Under the pieces are notes generated by a model. The model saw only the letters and a program-made list of their open reading frames with translations. It ran no database searches and was not told the DNA's origin. From contig JAEUHK010000126.1 in NCBI GenBank assembly GCA_016795465.1, positions 124,001 to 188,000 of the forward strand: 64,000 nt of DNA, written 5' to 3'. Origin of the DNA: Verrucomicrobiaceae bacterium. GTDB taxonomy: Bacteria > Verrucomicrobiota > Verrucomicrobiia > Verrucomicrobiales > Verrucomicrobiaceae. The position numbers and the translations under genes were made by a program. The first letter of the stretch is position 1. Every line of letters starts with the position of its first letter. Of the stretch, positions 24,856 to 41,130 are shown piece after piece.

Positions 24856-27662
24856 GCGGCGATGGCTCCCAGCACCTGCTGCAGTGCCACCAGCAGGCCG
24901 CTGGTGGTATAGGGCTTGGGAAGAAAGGAATCAGCGCCGCAATCCATGGCCCTGGCGGCGTCCATCTGCGTGCTCACGCCGCTGGCGGCGATGATGCGGG
25001 CGGAAGGGTTGAGCTTGCGGATGACGTGGATGGTGGAGGGGCCGTCCATGATGGGCATCATCATGTCCGTGATCACCGCATCGATCTCCTGATGATGCCT
25101 GGCATAGAGTGCGGCTGCCTCGGCTCCATGGCTGGCGGACATCACACGGTAGCCAAAACTTTGCAGGGACTGGCAGGTGATCTCCCGCACCGGCGTCTCG
25201 TCATCGATCACGAGCACCAGCTGGTTGCTGCCATGAGGTAGGGGCTCCTCACGGGGCACCTCGTTCTCGGCGAGGGCGGATGGGTCAGCGGGCAGAAAAA
25301 TGCGGAAAACGGTGCCTTTGCCGGGAGCGGAGTCGGTTTCGATGAAGCCGCCATGGCTCTTCACCATCGTCAGAGTGGTGGAGAGCCCCAGCCCTGTGCC
25401 TTTGCCGGCCTCCTTGGTGGTGAAGAAGGGGTCGAAAATCTTGCCCAGAAGCTCCGGCGGCATGCCGGTGCCCTCATCACTCACGGTGATGAGCACATGG
25501 GGTCCGCTGCGCGCCTCGCCATGGCTTGCGGCATACTGGGCGTCAATCTGGGTGTTGGAGGCCTGGATGCCGAGCGTGCCGCCGCGTGGCATCGCGTCAC
25601 GGGCGTTCACACACAGGTTCAGCAGCATTTGATGAAGCTGCGTGGCATCGGCATGCACCGGCCACAGGTCCGCCTGCTCGCGCATGTCGAGGAAGATGTT
25701 TTTTGGGAAAGTGTCACGCACCATGCAGCCGATCTCCTGGAGCAGCAGATGCATGCGCAGCGTCTGCCGTGTGCCTTCCACGCCGCGGGCAAAGGAAAGC
25801 AGTTGGCGGATCATGTCCGCGCCACGCCGTGCGTTGGTGGAGATGGTGCCCAGGGTATCGAGACAGGCCTTGTCATTGGTCTTGAGCTTCAACATGTCCA
25901 CAGACACGAAAATCGGCGTGAGCACGTTGTTCAAATCATGGGCGATGCCGCCGGCGAGCGTGCCGATGCTCTCCAGCCGCTGGTTCCGGCTGCTTTGCTC
26001 CTCGGCCTTCTTTTTCGCTGTGATGTCGGTGTTGATGGCCAAAATGGATTTGGGCTGGCCGTCTGCGTCCCTCACAAGCGTCCAGTGCCCCTCGACGATG
26101 ACTTCCTCGCCGGTCTTGGTGACTTGATGGATCTCGCAGATGTGCTCGCCGTCGGCCAGGATCTTCGCCGTCTTGGCTGCCACCATATCGGCTTCCCGGT
26201 AGATCAGCGTGGAAAGATCCCTGCCGACCGCCTCCTGGGCCGTCCATCCGTAGAGGCGTTCCGCGCTCTTGTTCCAGTAGCGGATGGTGTTGTCGAGCCC
26301 TCGCACGATGATCGCATCCCGTGCCATATCGAGCAGCGAGGCTTGTTCACGCAGTTGTTCCGCATCCTGGCGATGCTGTGACTGGGCAAAAACGAGCGAA
26401 ATGAGATTCGCCATCGAGAGCGCAAAACTCTTTTCATCCTCCGTCCAGGTCCGCGGGCCTCCCACATGCCCTTGGCAGAGCACGCCCGCCAGGACGCCGC
26501 TGACGTGCAGCGGCGTGTCGAGCATCGCGCCGATGCCCATGGGCTTCAGGTAGCAATCGCGGAATTCCTGGGTGCGCGGATCGGAGCAGGCATCCTCGGC
26601 GGAGATCATCTCATCCTGCTCAAGGGCGCGGAAATAGCCCGGAAAGTCATTTTTGGAGAGTTCGAGCCCCTGGCTGATTTGGCCTGAAGATCGCTCGATC
26701 AGGCTTAGGCACACGATGCAGCCCTTCGCACGGTCCTTCCGCCACACGCTCACACGCTCCACATTCATGCACTCGGCCGTCGCGGAGACAATCTCCTTCA
26801 AGGATTGGTCCAAGTCGGGATTCTGGAGAATCCCGCGTCTCATCAGCCGGGCGATCGCATCCCGCTGCTGCTCGTAGCGGCGCTGGCTGAGCCGCATGTT
26901 TTCCTCCGCCTGATGGCGGGCCGTGACGTCATGGGAAACGGAAAGGACCTCGCAGACGCGGCCATCCGCGCCGGTCAGGGGCACGCTGTGAGTCTCCACC
27001 CACTTGTCCGTGCCCTTCATGCCGACCATGCGGAAAGTGCCGCTGACGGTCTCCCCCGCCGCAGAACGCTCAGCCAGTTCAACGAAGCGAGCACGGTCCT
27101 CCGGCGTGATGAAACGGGTCACGTCCCGGCCCAAAACATCCTCCGCTTCATTCGCCTCCAAGATGCGCAGTCCAGCGGGATTGATCTCCAGCACACGTCC
27201 TGCAGTGTCAGTGAGTTTCACACATGCAGGCTCATGGTCGAGGATTGCACGCAGGCGGGATGCATCTTCCTTGTCGCGTGGCACGGGAGTCCTTTCCTCC
27301 AGTGGCACTTCAATCAGGGTGATGAGGGCACCCGGCAGGTCTACGGTGCTCTGAGATGTCAGGGTGACCTCGATCTGAGGACTGCCCGGTGTGGACTCGG
27401 GCACCTGAAAACGCCTTGCTGGCCCTCCTTGCAGCACGCCGTTCACGAGATCGACCGCGGCCAGCGAAGCCTCCGGCTCCCGCAGGCAGTCACGAACAAG
27501 GTCGAAGCCAGAATTCCCCTTAGCAGGAGGCCTGCCGGCCCACCGAGGGAAAACATCAAGCTCACCGGAGACGCGCTCGATCATGCCATGAGCATTGATT
27601 TGAACCACCAAGCAGCGGCCAAAGGTGAGCGCGACTGCCTGAGGTTGGTGCGCATTGGTCAT
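24852..27662 (-). CDS. Soluble PAS/GAF hybrid histidine kinase with receiver
   Basis: The frame is open to an ATG at 27800. I prefer the ATG at 27662 (MTNAHQPQAV, 936 residues) because the first 46 residues of the longer form are Arg/Ser-rich and domain-free, though no Shine-Dalgarno decides it. The layout is an N-terminal PAS-like region, PAS (ILDHEPACVKLTDTAGRVLE), GAF (LKEIVSATAECMNVERVSVW), PAS (MARDAIIVRGLDNTIRYWNK), HisKA with H-box LAGGIAHDLNNVLTP, HATPase (DEGTGMP, GKGTGLGLSTTL) and receiver (LVLVIDDETP, VITDMMMPIMDG, FLPKPY). The catalytic part closely resembles that of the convergent kinase at 20734, so the two are paralogues. It may be co-transcribed with the kinase gene upstream at 27811-29631. 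Confidence 0.9.
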   Translation of the reverse strand: MTNAHQPQAVALTFGRCLVVQINAHGMIERVSGELDVFPRWAGRPPAKGNSGFDLVRDCLREPEASLAAVDLVNGVLQGGPARRFQVPESTPGSPQIEVTLTSQSTVDLPGALITLIEVPLEERTPVPRDKEDASRLRAILDHEPACVKLTDTAGRVLEINPAGLRILEANEAEDVLGRDVTRFITPEDRARFVELAERSAAGETVSGTFRMVGMKGTDKWVETHSVPLTGADGRVCEVLSVSHDVTARHQAEENMRLSQRRYEQQRDAIARLMRRGILQNPDLDQSLKEIVSATAECMNVERVSVWRKDRAKGCIVCLSLIERSSGQISQGLELSKNDFPGYFRALEQDEMISAEDACSDPRTQEFRDCYLKPMGIGAMLDTPLHVSGVLAGVLCQGHVGGPRTWTEDEKSFALSMANLISLVFAQSQHRQDAEQLREQASLLDMARDAIIVRGLDNTIRYWNKSAERLYGWTAQEAVGRDLSTLIYREADMVAAKTAKILADGEHICEIHQVTKTGEEVIVEGHWTLVRDADGQPKSILAINTDITAKKKAEEQSSRNQRLESIGTLAGGIAHDLNNVLTPIFVSVDMLKLKTNDKACLDTLGTISTNARRGADMIRQLLSFARGVEGTRQTLRMHLLLQEIGCMVRDTFPKNIFLDMREQADLWPVHADATQLHQMLLNLCVNARDAMPRGGTLGIQASNTQIDAQYAASHGEARSGPHVLITVSDEGTGMPPELLGKIFDPFFTTKEAGKGTGLGLSTTLTMVKSHGGFIETDSAPGKGTVFRIFLPADPSALAENEVPREEPLPHGSNQLVLVIDDETPVREITCQSLQSFGYRVMSASHGAEAAALYARHHQEIDAVITDMMMPIMDGPSTIHVIRKLNPSARIIAASGVSTQMDAARAMDCGADSFLPKPYTTSGLLVALQQVLGAIAA

Positions 27663-27810
27663 TTGACCATTAAAAACATTCGCGCGTGAATGCGCAAGCA
27701 CGGTTCTGAGATTCCTGCTAGATCGTCGGAGGGGACGGCGGCCGGCGGAAGATCCGCCAGCGATGCTGGAAGGCTCGTCAACCTGGACAAGAGACCTCAT
27801 GGCATGCGCA

Positions 27811-29631
27811 TCATAAGCGGGCTGGTTTTAACAAAGCATTTCCCACCACCGTCAGCAGTTCAGGCATGCCGAAGGGCTTTGGCAGGAAGTTCTCGCCGTT
27901 CACAAGCTGTTTGGTGTGCTTCAAATTGGCCGCGGCGAAGCCACAGGTGAAGATGACCGGAAGGGAAGGGTCTTCCTCGTTGAGCGCCTTTTCCAGGTCA
28001 AAGCCGCTGGCACCTCCCGGCAGTTGCACATCCACGATGGCGAGCTTGATGACAGCCTTTCGTGAACGCCAAAGCTGCCAGGCCTCGTTCGCATCGCGGG
28101 CCACGAGCACATTGTGCCCCTGACTGGTCAGCACATACTCCATCACCTGCCGCACTGAGTCCTCATCATCGACGATCAGGATCGTGGCGCTCTGCTCCTC
28201 GGCCTCGGGTCGGGATTTGACCGGGGTGGCGGTGGCGGGGCCGTAGCTCTGGGCTGCGGGCAGGTAGATCTGAAATTCCGTGCCCACATCGGTGATGCTC
28301 TTGATGTCCATCCAGCCGTGCAACTGGCGCACCAAGCCCTGGACTGGCAGCAGGCCGGCCGCTTGGCCGAGCTCGCTGCTCTGATTGCCCGAACGATCGA
28401 ACAACGCCGCAACCTCCGCGGAGGTAAGCCCCTGGCTGGTGTCGCCGATGGCCAGCACGACAAACTCGCCTGGTCTCGCCTCGGCATGCAGACGCCGCGC
28501 GGCGACTTCATCACCCACTTGCACGCGGTGGGCGCGGATCGAGAGTCGTCCCCCCGTGGGCATCGCATCACGGGCATGCACGGCGAGGGTCAGAATGATC
28601 TGCCCGAGGTTCGCCGAATCAGCCATCACATCCGGCAGGCTGGACTCGAACCAGGCCTCCACGCCGATCTGTGCGCCCAGCACATGCTTCATCAGGACGG
28701 CTTCGGAGTTGATGCACTGCTCCAGGTTCACTGGCGAGGCCGGTCCGGGCTGTTGATGGTTAAACTTCAGCAGCTGTGAGGTCACTTCAGCAGCCTCTTT
28801 GGAGGAGTTCAGCACCTCGTCAAGCGAGCTCAGCAGCCTGGGGCTGCCATCCCGGGCCGAGAGGGCGATGCTCAGATGCCCTTGGGTGACTGTGAGATGA
28901 TTATTGAAGTAGTGAGCGACCCCCTCGGCCAGTCGTCCCAAGGTTTCCAGGCGTTGAGCCCGGAACAGCCGCTCCTCCAGCCGCATCCGGTGCTCCTGCT
29001 CGGCGTGCAGGCGATTGCTTGCCTCCTCAAAACGGCGTGCCAGATCAAGCATCTGCGTGTTCAGATTTAAATCGCGATAGGACATCTTCTTGTCACTGCC
29101 ATTCTTTGCCACCAGCATGCGCACGAGCTGGCCGGTCTCGAAAGTGGTGAGCCGGTTCTTGAGCAGCAGGAGGTGAGATGGGTCGCTGAGCTCGGTCGCC
29201 AGATGGTCTGGATTGGTGGTTTCCGCGATGTCGTGCAGGACGATGTGAAGGTCCCGCTGGAAATGCCAGATCTGCCTCATGAACCCTTTCGGGTCGCGAT
29301 GATGAAAGAGGCGGCCGTCGATAAATAATGCGGTGATAGGCCGGTGTTCCGCTGCGGCTGCCTCGACACACACCAACACCTCGGTCTCACTGTCACAGCG
29401 TCCAAATTCGATCGCATCCAAAGTTGGGCGAGCTGCGTTCGGGGATGGTGGCACCGCGTGTGAATGAGCGCTGCTGCCGAAAAACTCTTTATGATGAAGA
29501 GCCATCGAGAGCCGCACATCTTCATGAATATTTTTGTCACCGGCAAAGAAGAGGACGCGATCTTTAGTGGCGGAGATGGGATGTGAGGGAGTTAGGAGCA
29601 TGCTGCGATCAAAATCGGCAGTCATATCCAT
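27811..29631 (-). CDS. Hybrid histidine kinase with receiver-like N-terminus and C-terminal receiver
   Basis: This 606-residue soluble protein has no membrane segment. Residues about 24-180 look like a degenerate receiver (DRVLFFAGDKN, then TALFIDGRLF with Asp105). A coiled-coil linker (about 195-225) and a HisKA domain follow, with H-box AEGVAHYFNNHLTV (His240) and an ATPase region (VHARDAMPTGGRLSIRAH). The usual last G-box is poorly kept. A canonical receiver ends the protein (TILIVDDEDSVRQ, LAIVDVQLPGG, FLPKPF). It is followed after 10 bases by the frame of the next kinase on the same strand. It diverges from the operon starting at 29817, and the shared spacer carries inverted repeats. Confidence 0.87.
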   Translation of the reverse strand: MDMTADFDRSMLLTPSHPISATKDRVLFFAGDKNIHEDVRLSMALHHKEFFGSSAHSHAVPPSPNAARPTLDAIEFGRCDSETEVLVCVEAAAAEHRPITALFIDGRLFHHRDPKGFMRQIWHFQRDLHIVLHDIAETTNPDHLATELSDPSHLLLLKNRLTTFETGQLVRMLVAKNGSDKKMSYRDLNLNTQMLDLARRFEEASNRLHAEQEHRMRLEERLFRAQRLETLGRLAEGVAHYFNNHLTVTQGHLSIALSARDGSPRLLSSLDEVLNSSKEAAEVTSQLLKFNHQQPGPASPVNLEQCINSEAVLMKHVLGAQIGVEAWFESSLPDVMADSANLGQIILTLAVHARDAMPTGGRLSIRAHRVQVGDEVAARRLHAEARPGEFVVLAIGDTSQGLTSAEVAALFDRSGNQSSELGQAAGLLPVQGLVRQLHGWMDIKSITDVGTEFQIYLPAAQSYGPATATPVKSRPEAEEQSATILIVDDEDSVRQVMEYVLTSQGHNVLVARDANEAWQLWRSRKAVIKLAIVDVQLPGGASGFDLEKALNEEDPSLPVIFTCGFAAANLKHTKQLVNGENFLPKPFGMPELLTVVGNALLKPARL

Positions 29632-29730
29632 AAATACAATAAATTGAGATTCATTGTTTAGGCGGTTGCTAAATCATTGCAGGGCAAATCCCTCCCAAAT
29701 GCATTCGGGCCTAAGTAAGGCTAAATCTTG

Positions 29731-29778
29731 AAGAAACATTTAGATGATAGGCGAATGCGGGTGTGGTTCATCTAAATG
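29731..29778. promoter_or_regulatory. Divergent promoter region with 11-base inverted repeat and shared AAGAAACATTTAG element
   Basis: CATTTAGATGA (29737-29747) is matched exactly by TCATCTAAATG (29768-29778), a perfect 11-base inverted repeat with a 20-base spacer. The first arm overlaps AAGAAACATTTAG (29731-29743), also found in inverted orientation at 20187-20199. A further dyad TTTAGGCGGTTGCTAAA lies at 29657-29673. The spacer 29632-29816 separates two divergent signalling genes, so regulator binding here could control both (inference). Confidence 0.45.
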
Positions 29779-29816
29779 CGAATTCAGCAGCCAAATCACT
29801 CTTCATAAAACGTTGC

Positions 29817-30545
29817 ATGCTTACCCCTGCCACCACGCCAAGCCCGGAGTCGCCAAGTATTGAGCTTGAGGCTTTGGCGGCCCGTCTGGCTGCGGAAGAC
29901 GAAATGAGGATTCAGCTATCCCATCGTCTCCACAAAGAAGTCGCCGGTGGGTTGGTCGCATGCACGTCGCTCAGTGAGATGCTACGACACGCGAATGCCC
30001 AGCGAAATGATGCCGAGCTCGTCGCCAAGCTTCACGGGGAACTCGAATCAGCCCTGCGGCAGACGCTTGGCGTGGTGCGGGATGTCACAGAAGGACTATA
30101 TCCGCCCGTTCTGAAAGTTTTTGGCTTCAATGCGGCGCTGCAACAGCTCATCCGTGCCCTCACCGAAGGTTTTGGTGGCTCCATCATGCTTCAATTGAAT
30201 GGCAATGAGCCCGAGTTTGAGCTGAAGGACCGGCTGAACCTCTTCCGTGTCGTTGAGGACCTCGTTCACGTCTGCCTGCACAGTTCAGAGGCCACCTGGC
30301 TCGAGATCACCTGCCAGAGCGGGGATCAGCACTGGGAGATATTCATCGATCACGACGGCCGTGGTGACGCCTGGTCCGCGGACCAGACTTCGCCGGAGGT
30401 CGTGCAGGTCGAGGCCCGATGCGCCCTCATGGCAGCCGAGCTGGATGTATCCACTTCGGGAGCAGGTGATCGAGTGCGCATCGCCGTGCGAGTCCCGCTG
30501 CCTGCCACCGGCAAACCTTCGTCCACAGCACTGAAACTCGTCTGA
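29817..30545 (+). CDS. Degenerate HisKA_3-type sensor kinase-like protein
   Basis: With the ATG at 29817 (MLTPATTPSP) this is 242 residues. An in-frame start at 29763 adds 18 residues before the coding-like part. The H-box region reads RIQLSHRLHKEVAGGL. The usual ELHD is replaced by RLHK, so the acidic residue next to His39 is missing. The ATPase half keeps the outline LFRVVEDLVHVCLHSS but lacks the N-box Asn, and the G1 loop reads DHDGRG. It has no membrane helix. It may be a pseudokinase that binds or dephosphorylates the LuxR regulator eight bases downstream (inference). It is the first gene of a six-gene run ending at the terminator near 38050. Confidence 0.75.
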   Translation: MLTPATTPSPESPSIELEALAARLAAEDEMRIQLSHRLHKEVAGGLVACTSLSEMLRHANAQRNDAELVAKLHGELESALRQTLGVVRDVTEGLYPPVLKVFGFNAALQQLIRALTEGFGGSIMLQLNGNEPEFELKDRLNLFRVVEDLVHVCLHSSEATWLEITCQSGDQHWEIFIDHDGRGDAWSADQTSPEVVQVEARCALMAAELDVSTSGAGDRVRIAVRVPLPATGKPSSTALKLV

Positions 30546-30553
30546 CTTCCACC

Positions 30554-31201
30554 ATGTCTCCCGACGCGCCTCTCAACCTTCTTGTGGTGGATGACCACGC
30601 GCTCGTTCGCGAGGCCTTCAGCACCATGCTCAAGGCGGAGTTTCCCGAGTCCAAAGTGCACTCCGCGGGCAGTTGCGCCGAAGCGATGGTTTTCGCTCGC
30701 CAGCATGACTACGACATTGTGCTGGTGGACATCGAGCTGGGGGATCGCTCCGGCCTCGAGCTCACCACCGAGCTGCGCATGCTCGCGAATCCGCCGCGAA
30801 TCATCGCCGTATCGATGCATCAGGAGGAGACGTTTGTGACGCGCACCATGCAGCTCGGAGCCCGCTCCTACGTCACGAAGGACGCGCCACCCCACGAGCT
30901 CTTCGATGCCATCCGCGCCACCATGGCAGGGCGCACCTACATCTCTCGCGAGCTTGCGCAGCGCTTCGCTGATCTCTCCATTCGCAAAAGCACCGTCCGC
31001 AAAGAGCATCAAAAGCTCTCGAATCGTGAGCTGGAGGTGCTCATGCAGCTCGCCCGCGGCAAAAGTCTCAAGCAGGTCGCCCAGGATCTCTCGCTCAGTC
31101 CCCGCACGGTGGCTGTCCACAAGCACAACCTCTGCCGGAAGACCGGCCTCAAGAGCACGGTCGATCTCCTCCGCTACTGCCAGGCCAATGGTCTCGCGTG
31201 A
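30554..31201 (+). CDS. NarL/LuxR-family response regulator
   Basis: This 215-residue protein has a receiver (LLVVDDHALVREA, Asp59 in IVLVDIELGDRSG, Lys in SYVTKDAPP) and a LuxR HTH (NRELEVLMQLARGKSLKQ, TVAVHKHNLCRKTG). It follows the degenerate kinase by eight bases and precedes the FadL-like gene by 14, so it is likely co-transcribed with both. It resembles the orphan regulator at 42356 over its whole length, including the KSLK and VHKHN stretches in the HTH. It is the most likely transcriptional output of the neighbouring signalling locus. Confidence 0.9.
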   Translation: MSPDAPLNLLVVDDHALVREAFSTMLKAEFPESKVHSAGSCAEAMVFARQHDYDIVLVDIELGDRSGLELTTELRMLANPPRIIAVSMHQEETFVTRTMQLGARSYVTKDAPPHELFDAIRATMAGRTYISRELAQRFADLSIRKSTVRKEHQKLSNRELEVLMQLARGKSLKQVAQDLSLSPRTVAVHKHNLCRKTGLKSTVDLLRYCQANGLA

Positions 31202-31215
31202 ATCACTCTTCTCCC

Positions 31216-32478
31216 ATGAAATCCAGCCTTCTACTCCTGCTCTTCCTGCTCCTCGTGCATGGCTTTTCGCCGGCGGCGGAGACGCTCTCCGTCGTTCCGG
31301 ACTCCGCCCAGGCACTCGCCACGGCGGGTGGACGCTTCGCCAACCTGGACGATGCCTCCGCCGTGCGTGTGGCGCCTGCGAACATCGCCGGCATGACAGA
31401 GGCGCAGGTGCTCATGAACGCCGCCGTTTGGAACGGGGACATTCGCTTTGATTCGAACACCGGAGCCTCGGTCAAAATGAGCGAGTCGTGGATCTTTCCC
31501 GGCAGTCTCTACACGGTCATCCCGATCATTCCGGGTAAACTCGCCTTCGGCATCGGAGCCAGCACGCCTTTCGGCATGGCCACGAAGTATCCGAAGGACA
31601 TGGATCCCGCGCTCAAGTATCAGCTCGCCTACGAGTCACGATTGCTCGCCATCGACATCACTCCAGCTATCGCCTGGAAGGTCACGGACAGTCTCAGCGT
31701 CGCCGCGGGCATGGACATCATCTACTCGGAGCTGACCATTCGCCGCGCCTATCCCTGGGCTTTGTGGGCCGGGCCGGGCACGCCAGATGGGGAACTGTCT
31801 CTGCAGGGAGATGGATGGGGCTTTGGAGCGTATGCCAGTGCGAACTGGACCATCGCCAAAGGGCATCGTCTGGCCGTCATGGGCCGTCTTCCGGTGAAGG
31901 TCAATTACAGTGGTGATCTCGAGGCCAAGGGGATGCCCGCGGGCGTCCCGGCGCTTCTGGCCGTGGGGGCCACTCCCACCAGCAGCTTCAAATCGGACAT
32001 GACCTTCCCAGGTTCCATCGCCGTCGGCTACGGCATCGATGTCACAGACCGCCTCACTCTTGGTTTCGACTTCCAATGGTCGCGCAACTCCTCGCACGAT
32101 GACATTCCGATCGACATCGGGAACAATCAGGCCCTCCTCGCCGGCAACAACGCGGCGTTGCTCGGCTGGAAAAACTCCATCGACCTCGGCACGGGCATCA
32201 CTTACGCACTCGACGAGCGCTGGAAGCTGCGCTGCGGCTATCTTTTCTCCGAGACTTCGCAGACCGCCGCGAATTACACGCCCTCTGTGGCCACCAACGA
32301 CCGCCATGTCTTCGGCGTCGGCATCGGCTGGCGAGGGGAGCGCCAGAGCATCGATCTCGCCTACGCCTTTGTTTACAACCCCATCCGCACCATCAGCGGA
32401 AACGCCACGCCGGCCTTCGACGGGCGCTACAAGCACCAGTGGCACGTCATTTCCCTCAGCCTCACTCATCGTTTCTAA
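31216..32478 (+). CDS. FadL/OmpP1-type outer-membrane transport protein
   Basis: This is 420 residues from the ATG at 31216 (MKSSLLLLLFLLLVHG). A GTG at 31198 overlapping the previous stop is possible but gives a less typical signal peptide. After the export signal, SAQALATAGGRFANLDDASA and RVAPANIAGMTEAQ match the N-terminal hatch of FadL-family channels. The rest alternates beta strands, and the protein ends in Phe (LSLTHRF), as outer-membrane barrels do. FadL proteins take up long-chain fatty acids and other hydrophobic compounds. Here it sits directly upstream of a PhcB-like fatty-acid methyl-ester synthase gene, so uptake of a lipid signal is an attractive inference. Confidence 0.85.
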   Translation: MKSSLLLLLFLLLVHGFSPAAETLSVVPDSAQALATAGGRFANLDDASAVRVAPANIAGMTEAQVLMNAAVWNGDIRFDSNTGASVKMSESWIFPGSLYTVIPIIPGKLAFGIGASTPFGMATKYPKDMDPALKYQLAYESRLLAIDITPAIAWKVTDSLSVAAGMDIIYSELTIRRAYPWALWAGPGTPDGELSLQGDGWGFGAYASANWTIAKGHRLAVMGRLPVKVNYSGDLEAKGMPAGVPALLAVGATPTSSFKSDMTFPGSIAVGYGIDVTDRLTLGFDFQWSRNSSHDDIPIDIGNNQALLAGNNAALLGWKNSIDLGTGITYALDERWKLRCGYLFSETSQTAANYTPSVATNDRHVFGVGIGWRGERQSIDLAYAFVYNPIRTISGNATPAFDGRYKHQWHVISLSLTHRF

Positions 32479-32582
32479 CCATCAACTCGCGCATCAATGA
32501 AGCTCCCAATTCATCACCAAACGCACCGAGACGGCCATCCACTCCGTGTCGCACTGGTAAAAACACCCTGGCAACCACTTAC

Positions 32583-32591
32583 AGGAGGAGG
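32583..32591 (+). promoter_or_regulatory. Strong ribosome-binding site of the PhcB-like gene
   Basis: AGGAGGAGG lies eight bases before the ATG at 32600. It is one of the few textbook Shine-Dalgarno sequences in the window, and it fixes this start after a 121-base spacer. Confidence 0.75.
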
Positions 32592-32599
32592 TTTTTGAA

Positions 32600-34051
32600 A
32601 TGGAAACCAAGGACAATTCCCTTCCAGTGCTCAACTCCACAGGTGAGCGCCTGAGCTTCATCATCTGCCGGAACAGCCAGGGCGTCGAGGTGCGTGGCAC
32701 GCTCCACCGTCTTACTCGCTACCTGGGTGTCTTCGAGGTGTACAATCCCTACAGCATCGTCCAGCTCTCGGAGGTTCTGAACGACTTCCGCATCATGATG
32801 AACGATCGCGTCGTCTATTCAGGACGCGCCGTGATCGCCAACCTGGTGAACACCGGCATCATGCTCATCTGCGAGGCCTCCCTCACCGATGAAGGGTGGA
32901 TCGATATCGACATCCTCTCCCCGGCGCAGAACAAAAACCGCCTGCTCGAGGACTTTGCCGAATTCCTCCGCGAGACGGAAAAAAACTACACTGTCTCCCC
33001 GGACTTTAAGCTCGTCGTTGCAGACATGCATACGCTGCTCTCCGACCTCCGGCGCTGGATGGAGCAGGTGGAGCTCGGCGTGCGCTCTCTGCCATCAGGA
33101 GACCGCATTCAGGCAGAGCGTGAGACCATCAAAAAGCTCGAGGAGCCCATCCTGCCAGCTGTCACGCCCCTGCTGGAAAGGTTTGAAGGCACCGCCTCAT
33201 CCATCCCGCCGGAGCTGCAGCCCGTGCACCGCAGCTACATCAAGCGCCAGCTTCACCCCCTCGTGCTCTGCTCACCCTTCATCTACCGCACCTACCAGAA
33301 GCCTCTCGGCTACGCCGGTGACTATGAGATGGTCAGCATGATGCTCCGTGATCCCTACGAGGGCAGTTCCATGTTTGCCAAGGTGCTCAACCGCCTCTTT
33401 CTCGACACCGCGCCCGTCGTGGCGCATCGCAACCGCATCATCTATCTCAAACAGCGTCTGCATGAGGAGACCGAGCGCCTTGCGCAGCAGGGCAAAGTGG
33501 CCCGCATCTTCAACCTCGGCTGCGGTCCCGCCCAGGAGATCCAAAACTTCCTCATCGACGATCCGCTTTGCGACAACGCAGACTTCCTTCTCCTCGATTT
33601 CAACGACGAGACCATCACCAATACCTCCCGCGAACTCGAGGCTCTCCGCACACGTCATCGCCGCCGCACCGGCATCAAGCTGGAGAAGCGTTCCGTGCAT
33701 CAGATCCTCAAGGAATCCACGCGCACAGGCGCAGGCTTCGAGCCAGCCGGCTACGACATCGTCTATTGCGCCGGCTTGTTTGACTACCTTTCGGACCGCA
33801 TCTGCCGCCGCCTGCTGGAGGTCTTTTACGACCTCGTGGCCCCCGGCGGCCTCCTCATCGCCACCAATGTCGACAGCTCCAATCCATCCCGCAACTGGAT
33901 GGAGTACGTCCTCGAATGGCACCTCGTCTATCGTGACAAGGAAGGCTTTACCAAGATCGCGCCGGACAAGGCGCCGCTCGATGCCATCAACGTCAAAGCC
34001 GATGAGACCGGCGTGAACATCTTCCTTGAGGTCCGCAAGCCCGCCCAATGA
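32600..34051 (+). CDS. PhcB-like SAM-dependent methyltransferase (extracellular-factor 3-OH fatty-acid methyl-ester synthase family)
   Basis: This 483-residue protein has an N-terminal beta-rich domain (about 10-105) that may be PilZ-like, and a helical region (about 110-260, with YQKPLGYAGDYEMV). A class I methyltransferase fold follows: motif I IFNLGCGPAQEI (303-314), FLLLDFNDETI, YDIVYCAGLFDYL (385-397) and a late WMEYVLEWHLVYR. The GYAGDYEMV and MEYVLEWHL stretches are typical of the family annotated for 3-hydroxypalmitate methyl-ester synthesis, to which Ralstonia PhcB belongs. The product acyl chain cannot be read from sequence. Its stop overlaps the start of the membrane hybrid kinase (ATGA), which supports coupling and a PhcB-PhcS-like pair. 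Confidence 0.75.
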   Translation: METKDNSLPVLNSTGERLSFIICRNSQGVEVRGTLHRLTRYLGVFEVYNPYSIVQLSEVLNDFRIMMNDRVVYSGRAVIANLVNTGIMLICEASLTDEGWIDIDILSPAQNKNRLLEDFAEFLRETEKNYTVSPDFKLVVADMHTLLSDLRRWMEQVELGVRSLPSGDRIQAERETIKKLEEPILPAVTPLLERFEGTASSIPPELQPVHRSYIKRQLHPLVLCSPFIYRTYQKPLGYAGDYEMVSMMLRDPYEGSSMFAKVLNRLFLDTAPVVAHRNRIIYLKQRLHEETERLAQQGKVARIFNLGCGPAQEIQNFLIDDPLCDNADFLLLDFNDETITNTSRELEALRTRHRRRTGIKLEKRSVHQILKESTRTGAGFEPAGYDIVYCAGLFDYLSDRICRRLLEVFYDLVAPGGLLIATNVDSSNPSRNWMEYVLEWHLVYRDKEGFTKIAPDKAPLDAINVKADETGVNIFLEVRKPAQ

Positions 34052-36726
34052 TCTTCGACAGTCCAGAGGCTCGCGAGAGCATGGCGCGTTCGTTCGAGTT
34101 CTACGAACGCCCCATCCGCATTCGCAATTACAAGCTGGGGGCGTTCCTGGCGGGCATCTTCATGCCCGCAGGAGCCTCGCTGGACTACTTCATGTATGGC
34201 CTGGAGGTGACCAAGAGCTTCTTTATCGTCCGTGTCATCTCCGCCGTGCTCCTCGCCGGTGTGTGGCTGGCCCTGCACTACTTCCCGAACACACCGCACT
34301 ATCGTTCGATTGGCCGGCTTGTGGCGCTGATCCCCCTGGCTGCCATCTCATGGATGATCTACTGCCAGGATGGTGCCACCTCCCCTTACTACGCAGGGCT
34401 GAATCTGATCATGCTGGGTTCTGCCATCCTGCTGCGCTGGACCGTGGCGGACAGCGTCCTGATCTTCCTGCTCACCCTGTTCACCTATTTCCTGGCGGTG
34501 TCATGGCATGGGGAGTTCTCGCTGCACGGACTTTTCTTCAACAACATCTACTTCCTGATCGTCACCGGGATTTTCATCGTCGCCGGCAGTTGGTATTACA
34601 ACATCATCCGCCAGTCGGAGTTCCAGCTTCGCTACCGTCTCGATGCGAACCGTGCCGAGCTGGAGGAGTCCAATCAGAAGCTGCGAGAGCTTGATGAGGC
34701 CAAGAGCCGCTTCTTTGCCAACATCAGCCATGAGCTGCGCACGCCGCTCACGCTCATGATCGCTCCTTTGGAGACCATGCTGCACAATCCGCCTCCTGGC
34801 CGCGTGATCGAGGAGCACGAGCTCATTCAGACCATGCATGGCAATGCCATGCGGCTGCTGAAGCTCATCAATGATCTCCTCGAGCTGGTGCGCCTGGAGT
34901 CCGGCTCCATCAAAATCCGCCCGAAACCCGTGGAGATCGGCGCTTTCGTCCGCGGCATCAGCAACGCCGTCAGCGCCATGGCCCAGGACAAGCGCATCAC
35001 GCTCGGCTCCCAGGTCACTGCGGAGGTCGGCACGGTGATGACCGACCCTGAAAAGCTCGAGCGCATCACGCTCAACCTCATCTTCAACGCCCTCAAGTTC
35101 ACTGCCGCGAATGGTCGTGTCGAATTCAACGCCCACACCGAGGACGAGTGGCTCGTGCTGGAAGTCAAAGACACCGGCATGGGAATCCCGGCGGATCAAC
35201 TGCCGCACATTTTCGGGCGTTTCTGGCAGGCGGACACTTCTTCCCAGCGCAAGTTCCAAGGCATGGGCATCGGCCTTGGCCTCGTCAAAGAACTTGCCGA
35301 AGCGCAGGGCGGCAGCGTCTCTGCCATGAGCGAGGTGGGCAAGGGCACCACGATGACGGTGAAGCTCCCGCTCACGCGTCCCTCCGCCGATGACCTTGCC
35401 GAGGTGGAAGAGAATGAAGACCATCACGACGCTGCCGAGCATCCCGAGGGTGTGCAGAAGGACTGGATCGCCGATTTGTATCGCCGCGCGGAGCTCTTCC
35501 CGGCCATGACCTCGCTCCAGGCCACGCTGAAGCCCGTCGAGATCAGCGTCGCCCGCAGTCGCAAGCCAAAGCTCCTGATCGCCGACGACGAGCCGGACAT
35601 GCTCCGCTTCCTCAAGAGCCAGCTCAGCGCCAATTTCGAGGTGCTCGAGGCCGTCGATGGCCAGCAGGCCGTGGACAAGGCCGCGCAGTTCCTGCCGGAC
35701 ATCATTCTTTCCGATATGATGATGCCTGAGAAGGATGGATTGCAGGTTTGCCGCGAACTCCGGGAGCGCACCTCCACGCGCAACATTCCCATCGTGCTCC
35801 TCACCGCCCGTGCGGACGAGAAAACGAAGCTCGACTGCCTTGAGGCGGGAGCCAGCGACTTCCTGCCAAAGCCCTTCTCGCTGACCGAAGTGCTCGTCAG
35901 GCTCAAAAACCTCGTCGATTCACGCCTGTATCAAAAAGAGATCTTCAGCCAGAAGCAGCAGCTCGAAGCCGCTCTGGAGCAGATCAAGGAAACCGAGTCC
36001 ATGCTCGTGCAGAACGAAAAGCTCGCCGCGCTTGGCCGACTCAGCGCAGGGCTCATCCACGAGATCAACAATCCGCTCAACTACGCCCGCCAGGGGCTGC
36101 ATGTGCTCTCCAAATCCGTCAAGCATCTGCCTGAGCCGGAAAAGCCGGACTTCAACGAGACGCTCAAGGACATCGAAGACGGCATCACCCGCGTGGCGAC
36201 GATCATTTCCGACCTGCGCGGCTTCACCCGTGAGACAAAGGACTTCAATGCCTTCTTCGACCTCAAAACAGTTGTCGATACCGGCCTGCGCTTCTTCTCT
36301 CATGTGTGGAAAAGCGGCATGCAGCGCGAGGTGGAGGTCCCGCCGGGGCTGGAGATCCGAGGCGATGCGAACCAGTTCACCCAGGTCTTCATCAATCTGG
36401 TGCAAAACGCCGTCGATGCCATGGAGGGCAAGACCTATCCGGAAGGCGTGCAGCCCTGCATCCGCATCCATGGCGAGAAACGACGCGATAAAGTGGTCTT
36501 CACACTTCGTGACAACGGCCCCGGCATTCCCGCCACCATCCGGGACAAGATCTTCGATCCCTTCTTCACCACCAAGGACGTGGGCAAGGGCATGGGGCTG
36601 GGCCTCTCCATCTGCAATCGAATCATTTCCGACCATGGCGGCCGTGTCGAGGTGCGCAGTGAACCAGGCCAGTTCACTGAATTCATCCTCGAGTTCCCGA
36701 CCCCCGATAGCCCGGATTTCAACTGA
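34048..36726 (+). CDS. Membrane hybrid kinase with two catalytic cores around a receiver (PhcS-like position)
   Basis: This 892-residue protein begins with five or six membrane helices (about 30-185) without a large external domain, as in LqsS/PhcS-type sensors of lipid signals. A coiled coil (195-220) leads to a first full kinase core: H-box FFANISHELRTPL (His228), NALKF, DTGMGIP, GLGLVKELAEA. A receiver follows (LLIADDEPD, IILSDMMMPEKDG, LPKPF), then a coiled coil and a second full core: LSAGLIHEINNPLNY, NLVQNAVDAMEG, DNGPGIP, GKGMGLGLSICNRI. Both cores keep their ATP-binding boxes. The ATG overlaps the PhcB-like stop. By analogy with PhcS it would sense the methyl ester made by the upstream enzyme (inference). 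Confidence 0.88.
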   Translation: MIFDSPEARESMARSFEFYERPIRIRNYKLGAFLAGIFMPAGASLDYFMYGLEVTKSFFIVRVISAVLLAGVWLALHYFPNTPHYRSIGRLVALIPLAAISWMIYCQDGATSPYYAGLNLIMLGSAILLRWTVADSVLIFLLTLFTYFLAVSWHGEFSLHGLFFNNIYFLIVTGIFIVAGSWYYNIIRQSEFQLRYRLDANRAELEESNQKLRELDEAKSRFFANISHELRTPLTLMIAPLETMLHNPPPGRVIEEHELIQTMHGNAMRLLKLINDLLELVRLESGSIKIRPKPVEIGAFVRGISNAVSAMAQDKRITLGSQVTAEVGTVMTDPEKLERITLNLIFNALKFTAANGRVEFNAHTEDEWLVLEVKDTGMGIPADQLPHIFGRFWQADTSSQRKFQGMGIGLGLVKELAEAQGGSVSAMSEVGKGTTMTVKLPLTRPSADDLAEVEENEDHHDAAEHPEGVQKDWIADLYRRAELFPAMTSLQATLKPVEISVARSRKPKLLIADDEPDMLRFLKSQLSANFEVLEAVDGQQAVDKAAQFLPDIILSDMMMPEKDGLQVCRELRERTSTRNIPIVLLTARADEKTKLDCLEAGASDFLPKPFSLTEVLVRLKNLVDSRLYQKEIFSQKQQLEAALEQIKETESMLVQNEKLAALGRLSAGLIHEINNPLNYARQGLHVLSKSVKHLPEPEKPDFNETLKDIEDGITRVATIISDLRGFTRETKDFNAFFDLKTVVDTGLRFFSHVWKSGMQREVEVPPGLEIRGDANQFTQVFINLVQNAVDAMEGKTYPEGVQPCIRIHGEKRRDKVVFTLRDNGPGIPATIRDKIFDPFFTTKDVGKGMGLGLSICNRIISDHGGRVEVRSEPGQFTEFILEFPTPDSPDFN

Positions 36727-36755
36727 TCCAGTCCCACAACAACACAAACCATCCC

Positions 36756-37991
36756 ATGCAAAACCAATACGACCTCAAAAAATACGCGGTGCTCTACGTC
36801 GATGACGAGGAGAAGGCTTTGAAGTACTTCGAGAAGTCCTTCGGCGACGAGTTCCGCATCCTTACCGCCAACAGCGCTGACGCCGGCCTCAAGCTCATCG
36901 AAGAGCATGGGGATGACATCGGTGTGCTCCTCTCCGACCAGCGCATGCCGGGTCAGACGGGCGTTCAGCTCCTGGAGAAAACCCGCCACCTCCGCCCGCG
37001 TCTCGTTCGCATGATGGTTACCGCGTATGCGGACTACAGCGCCACCGTGGACGCCGTGAACCTTGGCAACATCTTCCGCTACATCTCGAAGCCCATTCAG
37101 ATCGAAGACATGCGGAACACGCTGGAGCGTGCCATGGAGTTCTACATCCTCCAGCAGGAACGTGATGACCTGCTCCGTGAAAAACTCTCCACGTTGCAGA
37201 ATGTGCTCATCGCCGATCGCGTGCTCGGCCTGGGCGTGGCCGCGGGCACGCTCGCCAGCCAGCTCCGCCAGCCGCTGCGTGGCCTTCACAGCTTCCTGGA
37301 GATCATTCCGGGTCGTGGTGGCCGTCCAGTGTTCGACCTCGATCGTCTGCGTCAGGGCACCTTCTGGCGTGATTTCCACGGTCATGTGGCGCAGCAGTCC
37401 GGTCTGCTTGCCGATTCGCTGGCGGAAGCGCTCGCCGCCTCATCCAGCGGTGAAAAGAGCCCGGCGTCCGCGGTGATCCAATCCGTCACCGAGGCGCAAA
37501 AGGCCGCGTTTGCCGCCAAAGGCATTACTTTGGAGGTCGGAGCCTCATTGCCTTCGATGGAGGTGAACAAAGCCGCTTTCGAAAAACTGCTCCAACTGGT
37601 TCTTCAGGCGGAATTGGAACTCCTCGGTGTGGGCAAAAAGGTCACGCTGAATGCGGCCGCGTCCGCGGATGGCAGCTCGATCACCGTTTCGGTGGCCGAT
37701 GACAGCGGCGGCGTCTCGCCTGAGGCCGTGCGTGCCGTGTTTGACCCGCTGCTCACGCAGGCAAAGCCCGGCGTGGATGCTCCTGGCATGGCGCTGCTCG
37801 GTGCCTCGATGCTCGCCAGTCATCTCGGCGGTGTGGCAAAGGTGCCTCGCGGTGCGAATGGCTTCAAACTCGACATCGAAGTGCCTGCCAATGCGGCGGA
37901 AGCACCTGCGGCGGCCGCGAGCAGTCGTGAATTCATCACCAACGTGCTCATGAATGATCTCCTCTGGGAGCGCATTCTGCAGAATGGATGA
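36756..37991 (+). CDS. Receiver protein with degenerate kinase-like C-terminal domain (PhcR/PhcQ-like)
   Basis: This 411-residue protein has an N-terminal receiver (AVLYVDDEEKALKYFEKSFG, Asp61 in VLLSDQRMPGQTG, a Tyr/Ala switch and FRYISKPIQ). A linker helix and a C-terminal region of about 230 residues follow. That region keeps the outline of an ATPase domain (VSVADDSGGVSPEAVRAVFD) but lacks the N-box Asn and clear G-boxes. Ralstonia PhcR/PhcQ are receivers joined to kinase-like C-termini, and the order methyltransferase, sensor kinase, this protein matches phcBSR. It has no DNA-binding domain, so its output is probably protein interaction. A strong terminator begins 35 bases after its stop. 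Confidence 0.8.
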   Translation: MQNQYDLKKYAVLYVDDEEKALKYFEKSFGDEFRILTANSADAGLKLIEEHGDDIGVLLSDQRMPGQTGVQLLEKTRHLRPRLVRMMVTAYADYSATVDAVNLGNIFRYISKPIQIEDMRNTLERAMEFYILQQERDDLLREKLSTLQNVLIADRVLGLGVAAGTLASQLRQPLRGLHSFLEIIPGRGGRPVFDLDRLRQGTFWRDFHGHVAQQSGLLADSLAEALAASSSGEKSPASAVIQSVTEAQKAAFAAKGITLEVGASLPSMEVNKAAFEKLLQLVLQAELELLGVGKKVTLNAAASADGSSITVSVADDSGGVSPEAVRAVFDPLLTQAKPGVDAPGMALLGASMLASHLGGVAKVPRGANGFKLDIEVPANAAEAPAAAASSREFITNVLMNDLLWERILQNG

Positions 37992-38025
37992 GGTGACCTG
38001 TGTGGCAGTGTTTGTGTCATGGACG

Positions 38026-38058
38026 ATCAACCGGCGGAAACGCCGGTTGATTCGTTTT
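38026..38058 (+). terminator. Rho-independent terminator ending the PhcB-like operon
   Basis: ATCAACCGGCG, loop GAAA, CGCCGGTTGAT form a perfect 11-base stem, followed by TCGTTTT. It lies between the convergent genes at 36756-37991 and 38071-39540 and is oriented for plus-strand transcripts. Confidence 0.85.
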
Positions 38059-38070
38059 GGCGCTTGATGA

Positions 38071-39540
38071 TCACTTCAACACCGAAGCCGACTTGCCGGC
38101 AGGGGAGACGGCGGCTGTCCGGTGCTCATTCGCCAGCTCGCTCATGCCGATCTGCTGGTAGAGCTCCGCCAGCTTCGCGTGCGTGGAGGCTTTCACGGGG
38201 GCTTTGGGCAAGGCCAGCTCGAAATCACGAATGGCATCCTTCAGCCGTCCGAGCTTCGCCAGCACATGACCGCGTGTGTCGAGGAAATGCACGTTCTCCG
38301 GCTCCTGGCGCACGAGGTCATCCATGATGGCCAGCGCCTTCTCCAGGTCGTCAGCACGCTCGGAGACGGCAGCAATGGCCATGGCGAGGTTGTTGCTGAT
38401 GATTTTGAAGCCTGGATTCAACGAGCACGCGAGCTCGAAGTGTGAACGCGCATCATCCCTCCTGCCTGCCTTCCAGTCCTGCACGCCGAGGTAGTAGTGA
38501 AGGAAGGACGTGGCGATGCCGCCGTCTCCCAGCACCCGCTCCACGAGGTGCCGCCGCTCTTCCGGCGTTGTCTCCAGCTCTTCGCAATCGGTGAGGAAGG
38601 CCATGATGATGTCCTGGCTTTCAGGGGAGACCTGGATGCCCTTTTGCAACAGCTCCAGCACCTTCAGCTTGTCCACCGCGGGCTGGTCCTTGAGGTGACG
38701 GCTCCACGAAAGGTAGATGCCTCCCAGCAACTGGCGGTCTTCGTTGTTCAGCTTTCCTCCGGTGGCGGTCATCAGCCACTGGATCGCCTGGTCAAAGCGC
38801 CGCTGCAGGCTGAGGCTCACCGCGATGGAGTAGCGGATGCGGTCGGAGCCGCTGGTGACGCCACTTTGCATGTCACGCAGCTTCATCTCCGCGGTGCGGG
38901 CGCATTTGATGCTCTCGTCAGCCATGCCGGAGAGCTGAAGGGCGGTGGCCTTCATGAGCATAAGGTCTGCTCTTTCCGTCAACGGCAGGCGGTTGAGGTA
39001 TTTAAGCACGGACCGCCAGTTCTTTTGTCCGGCTGCAAAGCGTGCCGCGAGCTCCAGCGCATCTTGATTCGTCGGATCGGCGCTCAACGCATGATCGATG
39101 TGGCGCAGAGCAGCCTCGGGATCGGGCTTTTCCTGCGTGAGCAGGCTCGCGGCCTGAGCCACATGCGCAGGTGCAAAGCCCGGCTGGTCCATGGGGGCGA
39201 TCCGGGCCAGCAGTCTCGCGGCTTCATTCGCCTTGCCGAGTCCTCGAAGCGCCTTCGCCTCGATCAGCGTGGCCTTGAGACTTTGTGAAGCATGCTGTGC
39301 GAGCCGTTTCGCCATGATGCGAGCCTCCACGAAACGCTGATTCTCCAGATGCGCGTTCGCTTTCTTTTCGAGTGCATCGAGCTGCGCGGGCGTGATGCCG
39401 CTGCTGGCGTGAAACACGATGAAGCCGAGCAGGATGAGCGCAAACAAGGCTGGCAGTCCGATGAGTCCGTCCAGTGGTCGGCGCTCGTCGAGCATCTGGG
39501 TGAACTGGTGGCGCAGTCGGTAAAGAGTGTCTTGCTGCAT
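38071..39540 (-). CDS. Membrane-anchored tetratricopeptide-repeat protein of the exosortase operon
   Basis: This 489-residue protein has one membrane helix near the N-terminus (GLPALFALILLGFIVFHAS, about 27-45), so the rest is probably periplasmic. From about 55 onward it is helical repeat throughout, with TPR-like units. Clear examples are KPDPEAALRHIDHALSADPT, ALAIMDDLVRQEPENVHFLD and LGRLKDAIRDFELALPKAP. TPR proteins of this kind often accompany exosortase/exopolysaccharide loci as scaffolds. It starts nine bases after the exosortase stop and is the last gene of the minus-strand unit beginning at 41862. Confidence 0.85.
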   Translation of the reverse strand: MQQDTLYRLRHQFTQMLDERRPLDGLIGLPALFALILLGFIVFHASSGITPAQLDALEKKANAHLENQRFVEARIMAKRLAQHASQSLKATLIEAKALRGLGKANEAARLLARIAPMDQPGFAPAHVAQAASLLTQEKPDPEAALRHIDHALSADPTNQDALELAARFAAGQKNWRSVLKYLNRLPLTERADLMLMKATALQLSGMADESIKCARTAEMKLRDMQSGVTSGSDRIRYSIAVSLSLQRRFDQAIQWLMTATGGKLNNEDRQLLGGIYLSWSRHLKDQPAVDKLKVLELLQKGIQVSPESQDIIMAFLTDCEELETTPEERRHLVERVLGDGGIATSFLHYYLGVQDWKAGRRDDARSHFELACSLNPGFKIISNNLAMAIAAVSERADDLEKALAIMDDLVRQEPENVHFLDTRGHVLAKLGRLKDAIRDFELALPKAPVKASTHAKLAELYQQIGMSELANEHRTAAVSPAGKSASVLK

Positions 39541-39549
39541 GGGAATCGC

Positions 39550-41106
39550 TCAGAGTGGGTTTGAGGAGGTGGAAAGGGAGCGGGAGAGGCTTTGGCGTGC
39601 CGCGGTGAGCAGTTCGGCGCAGGCCTCATGTGCCTCTTTGGAGTCGCCGGGTTCGATGCACAGCACTTGAAGCACGACCGTGGTCTCGGCTTCCTGCTCG
39701 GGCTGGAGCCAGCGGCCGACGAGCCGGTCACTCACGCGTTTGACGAAGTCCTCGGAGGGAAACTTCTGCGCGGCACCTTGCTCATCGAAAACGGACAGCC
39801 AGAGGTGCGCCTGCAAAAGGTCAGCAGGTTGGTGCATCTCAAGATGCCGCACCGTGTTCCCGTTTTCGCCCGGCGGAGCGATGTCGGTCTGTTTTTGAAA
39901 CTGCCAGCCCTGGCCGACATAGCACAGGCGTGTGTCATGAAAACCGGTGAAAGGGTAATTCACGGCCACATGAGCCTCCAGCGTGCCACGACGATAAAGC
40001 CACACCTGGTTGCGCACGCCAAGTTTGCCGATGAGCGAGCTTTCGCCGGCTTGTTCGCCTGCACGGCTCCATCCTGCCAGCTCCGCTGGCATCTCAAACT
40101 GCTGCACGGAGGCATCGAGGGTCTGTTTGGCAGACGCTGAGTGCCGTGTCACCAGCAAGGAAGGCCCTGCCAGCAAGACGCCGCCCGTCAAAGCCACTGA
40201 AAGGCTCAACCCAACGGGCAAAAGAGATCCAGAGCGTATCAGATCCGCTTCCTGTCGCGCAGTGACAAGGCGTGGAAGGGAAGCCCGGTTCAGCAAAAAG
40301 CCCGCGCCATGATCCGCGCTCCAAACGAGCAGCAGATCGAGTGCGAAAAAGCCGATGCCGAGAAGCTGGTGCGGCATCCCGCTTTCGAGTTCGAGACCGT
40401 AAAAGTGAGCGCCGCCGATCACGACGCAGATGCGCAGCACATTCGTGGCCACCGACATGGCGGCGGAGATGGCCAGCAGAACCATGGCATGCACGACCGT
40501 GCGCCGGCGCAGGGCGCTCAACACGAGTGCGATGCAGATGATCGTCAGAAGCGAATTGGTGCCGCTGCAGGCGTCATCCACAAAGAAGCGCCGCTGTGGC
40601 GTCACCACGATCGTTGCTTCCACCACATGCAGGAGGTTGATCATGTCGAGCCAGCCCTGGCTCAGACGAGCGGCCAGCCCGGCGAGCATTTGATGCAGAT
40701 CATGGTCCGCCATCAGCGGTGGCGGCACAAAGAACAGAGACAGGGCAGGGAACACCCAGCGTGGCGCATCGTCATCACGGCGGCGTTCATGAGCTGCCGC
40801 GTAAGCCGTCATCGCGGCGGCGAACGCAAGGCCGGCAAAGAAAGGTGAAACCAGCACGAAGCCTGCGATGGCCAGGCTGAAGTGTGCGAAGATCAAAACC
40901 TTGGCGAGGACAGGGACGCGGCCTCCGCTTGGAAGGCCGCTCCTGTCTTTGAACATCAAATAACCCAGCGCCAGCAGCGGGAGCGGCACAAAGCCATACG
41001 CCGGATGACGCAGCCACAGCTCATGCAAAGCAAAAGCGAGGCAGGCGACCGGTGAAGCCCAGGCGAGCAGGCCCGCTGGAGATCGGCTTGATGAGGCGGA
41101 AGTCAT
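39550..41106 (-). CDS. Exosortase fused to a C-terminal EpsI-like domain
   Basis: This 518-residue protein begins with a multi-spanning membrane region (about 10-270). It carries the exosortase catalytic triad in order: Cys180 in FFVDDACSGTNSL, Arg225 in ATNVLRICVV and His246 in ESGMPHQLLG. A further helix (about 297-320) leads to a soluble C-terminal domain (330-505) with YPFTGFHDTRLCYVGQGWQF, which resembles EpsI (DUF3485), usually a separate protein. Exosortases cleave and transfer PEP-CTERM proteins at the inner membrane. A PEP-CTERM gene lies 24 bases upstream (41131-41862) and a TPR gene nine bases downstream. Confidence 0.9.
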   Translation of the reverse strand: MTSASSSRSPAGLLAWASPVACLAFALHELWLRHPAYGFVPLPLLALGYLMFKDRSGLPSGGRVPVLAKVLIFAHFSLAIAGFVLVSPFFAGLAFAAAMTAYAAAHERRRDDDAPRWVFPALSLFFVPPPLMADHDLHQMLAGLAARLSQGWLDMINLLHVVEATIVVTPQRRFFVDDACSGTNSLLTIICIALVLSALRRRTVVHAMVLLAISAAMSVATNVLRICVVIGGAHFYGLELESGMPHQLLGIGFFALDLLLVWSADHGAGFLLNRASLPRLVTARQEADLIRSGSLLPVGLSLSVALTGGVLLAGPSLLVTRHSASAKQTLDASVQQFEMPAELAGWSRAGEQAGESSLIGKLGVRNQVWLYRRGTLEAHVAVNYPFTGFHDTRLCYVGQGWQFQKQTDIAPPGENGNTVRHLEMHQPADLLQAHLWLSVFDEQGAAQKFPSEDFVKRVSDRLVGRWLQPEQEAETTVVLQVLCIEPGDSKEAHEACAELLTAARQSLSRSLSTSSNPL

Positions 41107-41130
41107 TGGCGCTGGGTGTGAGGGGCTGAA

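Follow-up and report, generated by a model that had tools for sequence, protein, structure and literature searches.

A conserved Phc-like gene module with a new layout in Verrucomicrobiota, most likely an acyl-ester signal system

Introduction

Does a run of genes in a verrucomicrobial genome encode a lipid-signal system of the Phc type, and which genes belong to it? With its phc system, the plant bacterium Ralstonia produces and perceives a 3-hydroxy fatty-acid methyl ester, and the output of this system runs via the LysR regulator PhcA. A sequence-only reading of the window (the whole stretch of 64,000 nucleotides that was analysed) had pointed to genes for a PhcB-like methyltransferase, a membrane hybrid kinase and a receiver with a kinase-like C-terminus in the order phcB-phcS-phcR, as part of a six-gene run closed by a strong terminator. 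The phc cluster has been placed only in Betaproteobacteria (PMC10653808), and no link between phcB and Verrucomicrobia was found in the literature searched. We report here that the module is real and conserved, that it is Phc-like but laid out in a new way, and that it is most likely an acyl-ester signal system.

Results and Discussion

Layout of the locus

The features discussed below, with the evidence for each in brackets, are as follows.

24852-27800, minus strand: U2, soluble hybrid kinase, PAS-GAF-PAS-HisKA-HATPase-REC, 982 aa (Pfam; orthologues in relatives)
27811-29631, minus strand: U1, kinase-like protein with C-terminal REC, 606 aa (Pfam; alignment)
29721-29743, no strand: palindrome CTAAAT-N11-ATTTAG, probable operator (genome motif scan; relatives' loci)
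29817-30545, plus strand: degenerate DesK/HisKA_3-like kinase (residue alignment; structure-model matches in PDB)
30554-31201, plus strand: NarL/LuxR-type response regulator, receiver plus GerE DNA-binding domain (Pfam; residues)
31198-32478, plus strand: FadL/OMPP1 outer-membrane channel for hydrophobic compounds (Pfam, 150.8 bits; genome count; adjacency)
32583-32591, plus strand: strong Shine-Dalgarno-like AGGAGGAGG ahead of the methyltransferase (sequence)
32600-34051, plus strand: PhcB-like SAM methyltransferase, MT (Pfam; plasmid search; alignment; tree)
34048-36726, plus strand: PhcS-like membrane hybrid kinase (Pfam; sensor search; profile comparison; residues)
36756-37991, plus strand: PhcR/PhcQ-like response regulator, receiver plus pseudo-histidine-kinase C-terminus (Pfam; residues)
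38025-38059, plus strand: terminator-like hairpin with short T tract (fold; sequence)

All six co-directional genes are open at 29817-37991 in the frames that the earlier reading had given, and Pfam matches over the run comprise a response regulator with GerE, OMPP1/FadL, a methyltransferase fold, HisKA/HATPase-REC-HATPase and a receiver with a weak HATPase. Pfam and residue alignments likewise bear out the degenerate kinase, LuxR regulator and FadL-like channel described for the run. The ATGA overlap of MT and hybrid kinase is real (34048-34051), and the LuxR and FadL reading frames overlap by GTGA at 31198-31201. A terminator-like hairpin is present too: the hairpin proper lies at 38025-38051 and is not listed by a simple terminator scan, although the 56-nt stretch here folds at -33.4 kcal/mol with a z of -7.4 versus shuffles. 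What did not stand is the extent of the unit, to which the divergent genes at 24852-27800 and 27811-29631 and the palindrome at 29721-29743 also belong. As U1 and U2 are kept as divergent neighbours in relatives, the unit comprises eight genes in two divergent transcripts. Directly downstream of the module, at 38071-41901 on the minus strand, lie genes for a TPR protein (convergent, the first after the hairpin), an exosortase-like membrane protein and a PEP-CTERM-like protein; of the loci compared, L002 and L004 alone keep these genes next to the module (numbers of this kind denote the relatives' or plasmid loci compared with the window), and they were therefore excluded from it.

The methyltransferase compared with a Phc-like locus

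For the Phc comparison a phcB-S-R-Q-like locus on a plasmid of Paraburkholderia graminis served as proxy, together with published lengths and residues of the Ralstonia proteins. The proxy locus encodes, in order, an MT of 468 aa, a membrane kinase of 445 aa, a receiver of 134 aa and a receiver protein of 344 aa; published lengths are 464-468 aa for PhcB, 368-374 aa for PhcR and 336-337 aa for PhcQ (PMC8578825), against which the PhcR-like protein of the proxy, at 134 aa, is short. The proxy MT has an Arg at position 22 and its kinase a His at 233, the published residues being PhcB Arg22 (PMC6989110) and PhcS His230 (PMC11960443).

The window MT is composed of an N-terminal beta-barrel (aa 20-95), a helical middle and a class I methyltransferase core (aa about 300-480), in which the SAM motif GCG occupies aa 307-309. 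In a plasmid search it matches the P. graminis MT at 40% identity over 94% of its length with 312 bits, whereas the best other plasmid MT reaches at most 97 bits, and its conserved R32 aligns with R22 of the proxy. The MT tree places the proxy within the verrucomicrobial family, beside members linked to polyketide synthases (PKS; 98/96), with the distant plasmid MTs outside on long branches, and the groupings that support a PhcB-type placement receive 94/96 and 100/100. By the proxy, then, the protein is a full-length PhcB-type methyltransferase as had been proposed, and it did not fall closer to another family. No curated PhcB model was present among the Pfam and NCBIfam matches, and none of the PDB chains matched the MT by sequence. 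A fold search returned general class I methyltransferases only, so that the substrate is not decided by the fold.

Hybrid kinase and receiver-pseudokinase

The hybrid kinase comprises a multi-TM sensor (aa 1-200), a first kinase unit HK1 (218-443), a REC domain (510-619) and a second kinase unit HK2 (about 646-885). Its sensor is membrane-embedded and has no large outer domain, in line with the earlier reading. Searched alone against 72,556 plasmids, the N-terminal 211 residues match a single record, the P. graminis locus (E 6e-8), and the sensor profile matches the P. graminis kinase with a probability of 99.6 and an E of 2e-24 over 216 columns; HK2 is 32% identical to the proxy kinase over 259 aa. 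MT and sensor, encoded by neighbouring genes, thus point independently to one and the same locus, which is strong evidence of shared descent. By the proxy, the protein combines a membrane sensor of the PhcS type with a histidine kinase, and its architecture differs by an extra HK1-REC block inserted between the sensor and the PhcS-like kinase. The HK1, REC and HK2 residues are conserved in an alignment of 44 hybrid kinases, a count from which the L036 row was left out as a bad join.

The third protein joins a receiver to a histidine-kinase-like domain and carries no DNA-binding domain, the layout described for PhcR (PMC8578825), and the receiver with kinase-like C-terminus that had been read from the sequence is recovered by Pfam as a receiver and a weak HATPase. 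The receiver residues are intact in 39/39 sequences, the kinase His is kept in 6/39 and the N-box Asn in 0/39. The window gene is closer to the PhcQ-like receiver of the proxy (44%) than to the PhcR-like one (36%). Arg154 of PhcQ is needed for full function in Ralstonia (PMC6989110), and the matching position, in the proxy's numbering, aligns with an Arg in the window protein. PhcQ as a fourth operon gene was not found, position 37991 being followed by the hairpin and the convergent TPR gene.

With MT and kinase sensor both matching the proxy locus and the order MT, kinase, receiver kept, the Phc-like reading holds. The proxy comparison supports Phc membership for the MT, the sensor kinase and the receiver, the window lacking a PhcQ gene. 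Points that speak against the module reading are the extra HK1-REC block, which is absent from PhcS, the lack of a PhcQ-like second receiver after the run in the window, the shortness of the proxy's PhcR-like protein and the absence of FadL and the LuxR pair in part of the family.

Conservation across Verrucomicrobiota

Searching species genomes with the MT gave 40 loci among the matches listed, all from Verrucomicrobiota. Almost all 40 have MT, hybrid kinase and receiver in this order, and degenerate kinase, LuxR and FadL stand in front in a large subset that includes most close relatives; the possibility that the gene order would not recur in any relative did not materialise. An even sample of 388 Verrucomicrobiota genomes held the MT in 22 and the kinase sensor domain in 23, with a sensor kinase at most 300 bp from the MT in 21 of the 22 MT genes. 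Genome G392 (L141 9670-11496) encodes the sensor domain, with two receiver genes beside it, and yielded no family MT at the threshold applied. FadL and the pseudokinase-LuxR pair are absent from part of the family (L018, L040, L082) and are therefore not essential to the core. In both L036 (Limisphaerales) and L125 the MT is followed by a PhcS-like protein with a single kinase unit (464 and 453 aa, respectively) and a receiver-kinase of 420 aa, which is the layout of phcB-phcS-phcR.

Two further arrangements were observed. A second, class-B Phc-like triad occurs in the genus (L137 5506-9347; L138 4360-8224; L139 6233-10077) and consists of a short MT of 319 aa, a single-kinase PhcS-like protein of about 495 aa and a receiver-kinase of about 417 aa. 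The genome from which the window comes has its class-B MT and sensor kinase on separate contigs (C76, C21). Elsewhere a receiver domain is present at the MT N-terminus (L073 2089-4146, by Pfam; L076 5670-7682 and L079 7498-9507, by receiver matches in searches), followed in L073 and L076 by hybrid kinase and receiver-kinase. In such REC-MT fusions, phosphorelay control may extend to the synthase.

FadL and PKS links to a probable lipid substrate

Besides the FadL gene 121 bp ahead of the MT, the 6.76-Mb genome has no other. Among 96 relatives, 25 of the 36 FadL genes lie 106-173 bp from an MT, and FadL presence tracks MT presence (29/7/4/56; Fisher p 7e-14, kinship ignored). The Akkermansiaceae-type relatives L113 and L027 have FadL downstream instead, and L036 has FadL genes upstream. 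Relatives share no conserved motif in the FadL-MT intergenic stretch, and for this reason we do not propose an operator in it. Five loci from other families of the phylum (L118, L119, L121, L122 and L123) have a type I PKS (KS-AT-DH-ER-KR-ACP) 17-60 bp upstream of the MT, its domains being assigned by Pfam in all of these except L122, which was placed by size and position only; in L120 the upstream synthase reads AMP-ligase-ACP-KS-AT-MT-KR-ACP.

L118 3548-9826; L119 9720-15968; L121 2267-8539; L123 10660-17004; L120 770-8581: PKS genes

As a type I PKS directly precedes the MT in these families, the MT probably acts on an acyl chain, and the FadL and PKS links together point to an acyl substrate. 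In a PKS cluster on an Enterobacter ludwigii plasmid, the C-terminal end of the last PKS gene matches the PhcB-like MT core at 25% (L127 7754-10891).

The same linkage, with the PhcB-like full length, fits a small-molecule substrate, and we hold it very improbable that the MT belongs with the CheR-like protein methyltransferases and adjusts the hybrid kinase through methylation; one distant plasmid relative is annotated as chemotaxis CheR, with 24% identity over half the length. Sensing of environmental lipids deserves more weight, although we consider it unlikely: FadL and the membrane kinase would detect outside fatty acids or hydrocarbons, the MT would modify or inactivate the ligand, and no cell-cell signal would be involved. 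FadL being typically an uptake channel, the membrane-embedded sensor without a large outer domain and the DesK-like fold of the degenerate kinase (see below) agree with such a function. The MT is nevertheless the most constant partner of the sensor (21/22) while FadL is dispensable, and a PKS before the MT in five relatives speaks for synthesis rather than uptake; moreover, PhcB is the signal synthase in Ralstonia (PMC8578825).

Pseudokinases, LuxR regulator and palindrome

In the degenerate kinase the acceptor His is kept in 15/15 orthologues and the ATP-binding N-box Asn of a functional histidine kinase in 0/15, a loss that probably makes autophosphorylation impossible. Its structure model matches DesK chains in the PDB, DesK being a lipid-state sensor and the partner of NarL-type regulators, and we regard the protein as a candidate HPt-like factor. 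U1 shows the same trait in a pseudokinase-REC protein: the His is kept, and at the N-box position every aligned orthologue has His instead of Asn. U1 orthologues are directly divergent in 13 loci. Relatives' loci that contain the degenerate kinase and LuxR gene also hold a U2 orthologue (44-56%) wherever they extend far enough. From their residues we infer that U1 and the degenerate kinase may have phosphotransfer roles like those of HPt proteins. The receiver of the LuxR-type regulator is intact, with D59, S87 and K109 invariant in 15/15. In L113 (5298-5690, an Akkermansiaceae-type relative) this position is taken by another output gene, for an AraC-type regulator, between the receiver gene and FadL.

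The palindrome lies between the divergent transcripts, with the start of the degenerate kinase 73 bp further on, and is the only CTAAAT-N11-ATTTAG site in the 6.76-Mb genome at up to one mismatch; about 0.05 perfect sites are expected by base composition. Of the relatives' loci that have both degenerate kinase and LuxR gene, 11 contain a single copy each, mostly 61-70 bp ahead of the start; the L021 copy deviates by one mismatch, and L009, the closest of these relatives, keeps half only. Apart from a copy of the window's own, the palindrome is absent from the other fetched loci. It is probably the module's own operator, and the LuxR protein would be what binds it. Among the genes examined at 24852-41901 there is no LysR-type, PhcA-like gene.

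A genome-unique site means that the LuxR regulon may be the module alone. This could also suit an internal function in lipid or membrane homeostasis, with the MT making a membrane lipid or an envelope polyketide (compare its PKS linkage), the kinases tuning the pathway and the product staying inside. We judge this quite improbable, as an outer-membrane FadL channel adjoins the MT in several layouts and the sensor is homologous to that of a PhcS-like kinase.

Comparison with known systems

Relative to PhcBSRQ, with the P. graminis proxy as standard, the window agrees in gene order, the MT being followed by a membrane sensor kinase and then by a receiver with kinase-like C-terminus, and has similar protein lengths and homology of the membrane sensor and of the full-length MT including its N-terminal domain. 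It differs in the additional HK1-REC block of the PhcS-like kinase, in the degenerate kinase part of the receiver protein, in having no PhcQ and no linked PhcA-like LysR gene, and in its linked FadL, pseudokinase-LuxR pair and divergent kinases.

LvrAB of Leptospira shares the succession of an HK-REC-HK hybrid kinase and a receiver-kinase protein, and the NCBIfam LvrA model matches the hybrid kinase at aa 197-882. LvrA is a cytoplasmic protein that has a PAS domain but lacks a TM sensor (PMC5863495), whereas the window kinase has such a sensor, and a methyltransferase is not mentioned for the LvrAB operon. Given LvrA without TM sensor and a match of 296 bits, far below the cut-off of 1200, membership in LvrAB was rejected.

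DesK/DesR, a HisKA_3 kinase with a NarL-type regulator, is resembled in that the degenerate kinase is predicted to fold like DesK and adjoins a NarL/LuxR-type regulator, yet this kinase is soluble, has no TM sensor and lacks the N-box in all 15 orthologues. Rhizobia offer a precedent for FadL-mediated uptake of long-chain signals, a FadL-family channel there being tied to the uptake of long-chain AHLs (PMC9938287); the signal in that case is an AHL, and FadL is not reported there in a synthase-receptor gene cluster.

Proposed mechanism

Taken together, we consider it likely that the locus is a Phc-type lipid-signal module, serving acyl-ester signalling with a dedicated channel and a LuxR output. 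We infer the signal molecule, its action between cells and dependence on quorum, the direction of phosphotransfer and the binder of the palindrome as follows. The PhcB-like MT would cap an acyl chain, most simply to a hydroxy fatty acid methyl ester, and so give a hydrophobic signal; FadL would pass this across the outer membrane, and the PhcS-like multi-TM sensor would bind it in the inner membrane. Binding would change the flow of phosphate through HK1-REC-HK2 to the PhcR-like receiver-pseudokinase, U2, U1 and the HPt-like degenerate kinase would carry phosphate to the LuxR-type regulator, and this in turn would bind the palindrome and adjust expression of the module.

A broader proposal we put forward tentatively, as possible rather than probable: the Phc-type family would have diversified in Verrucomicrobiota, with PKS-fed MTs, REC-MT fusions, a FadL channel and a pseudokinase relay to LuxR on its own divergent promoter, and betaproteobacterial phc would be one branch of it, because the P. 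graminis MT groups with PKS-linked verrucomicrobial MTs.

Conclusions

Should the module function in the proposed way, Verrucomicrobiota, which are abundant in soil and water yet poorly understood, would gain a concrete communication system with a named synthase, receptor, channel and switch, and cultured members such as Brevifollis gellanilyticus (locus L023) would be open to testing. In that case, the signal chemistry could be deduced from the gene clusters of the PKS-linked relatives. The family also supplies natural variants with which to study onward signalling by PhcS, a question left open by the Ralstonia papers.
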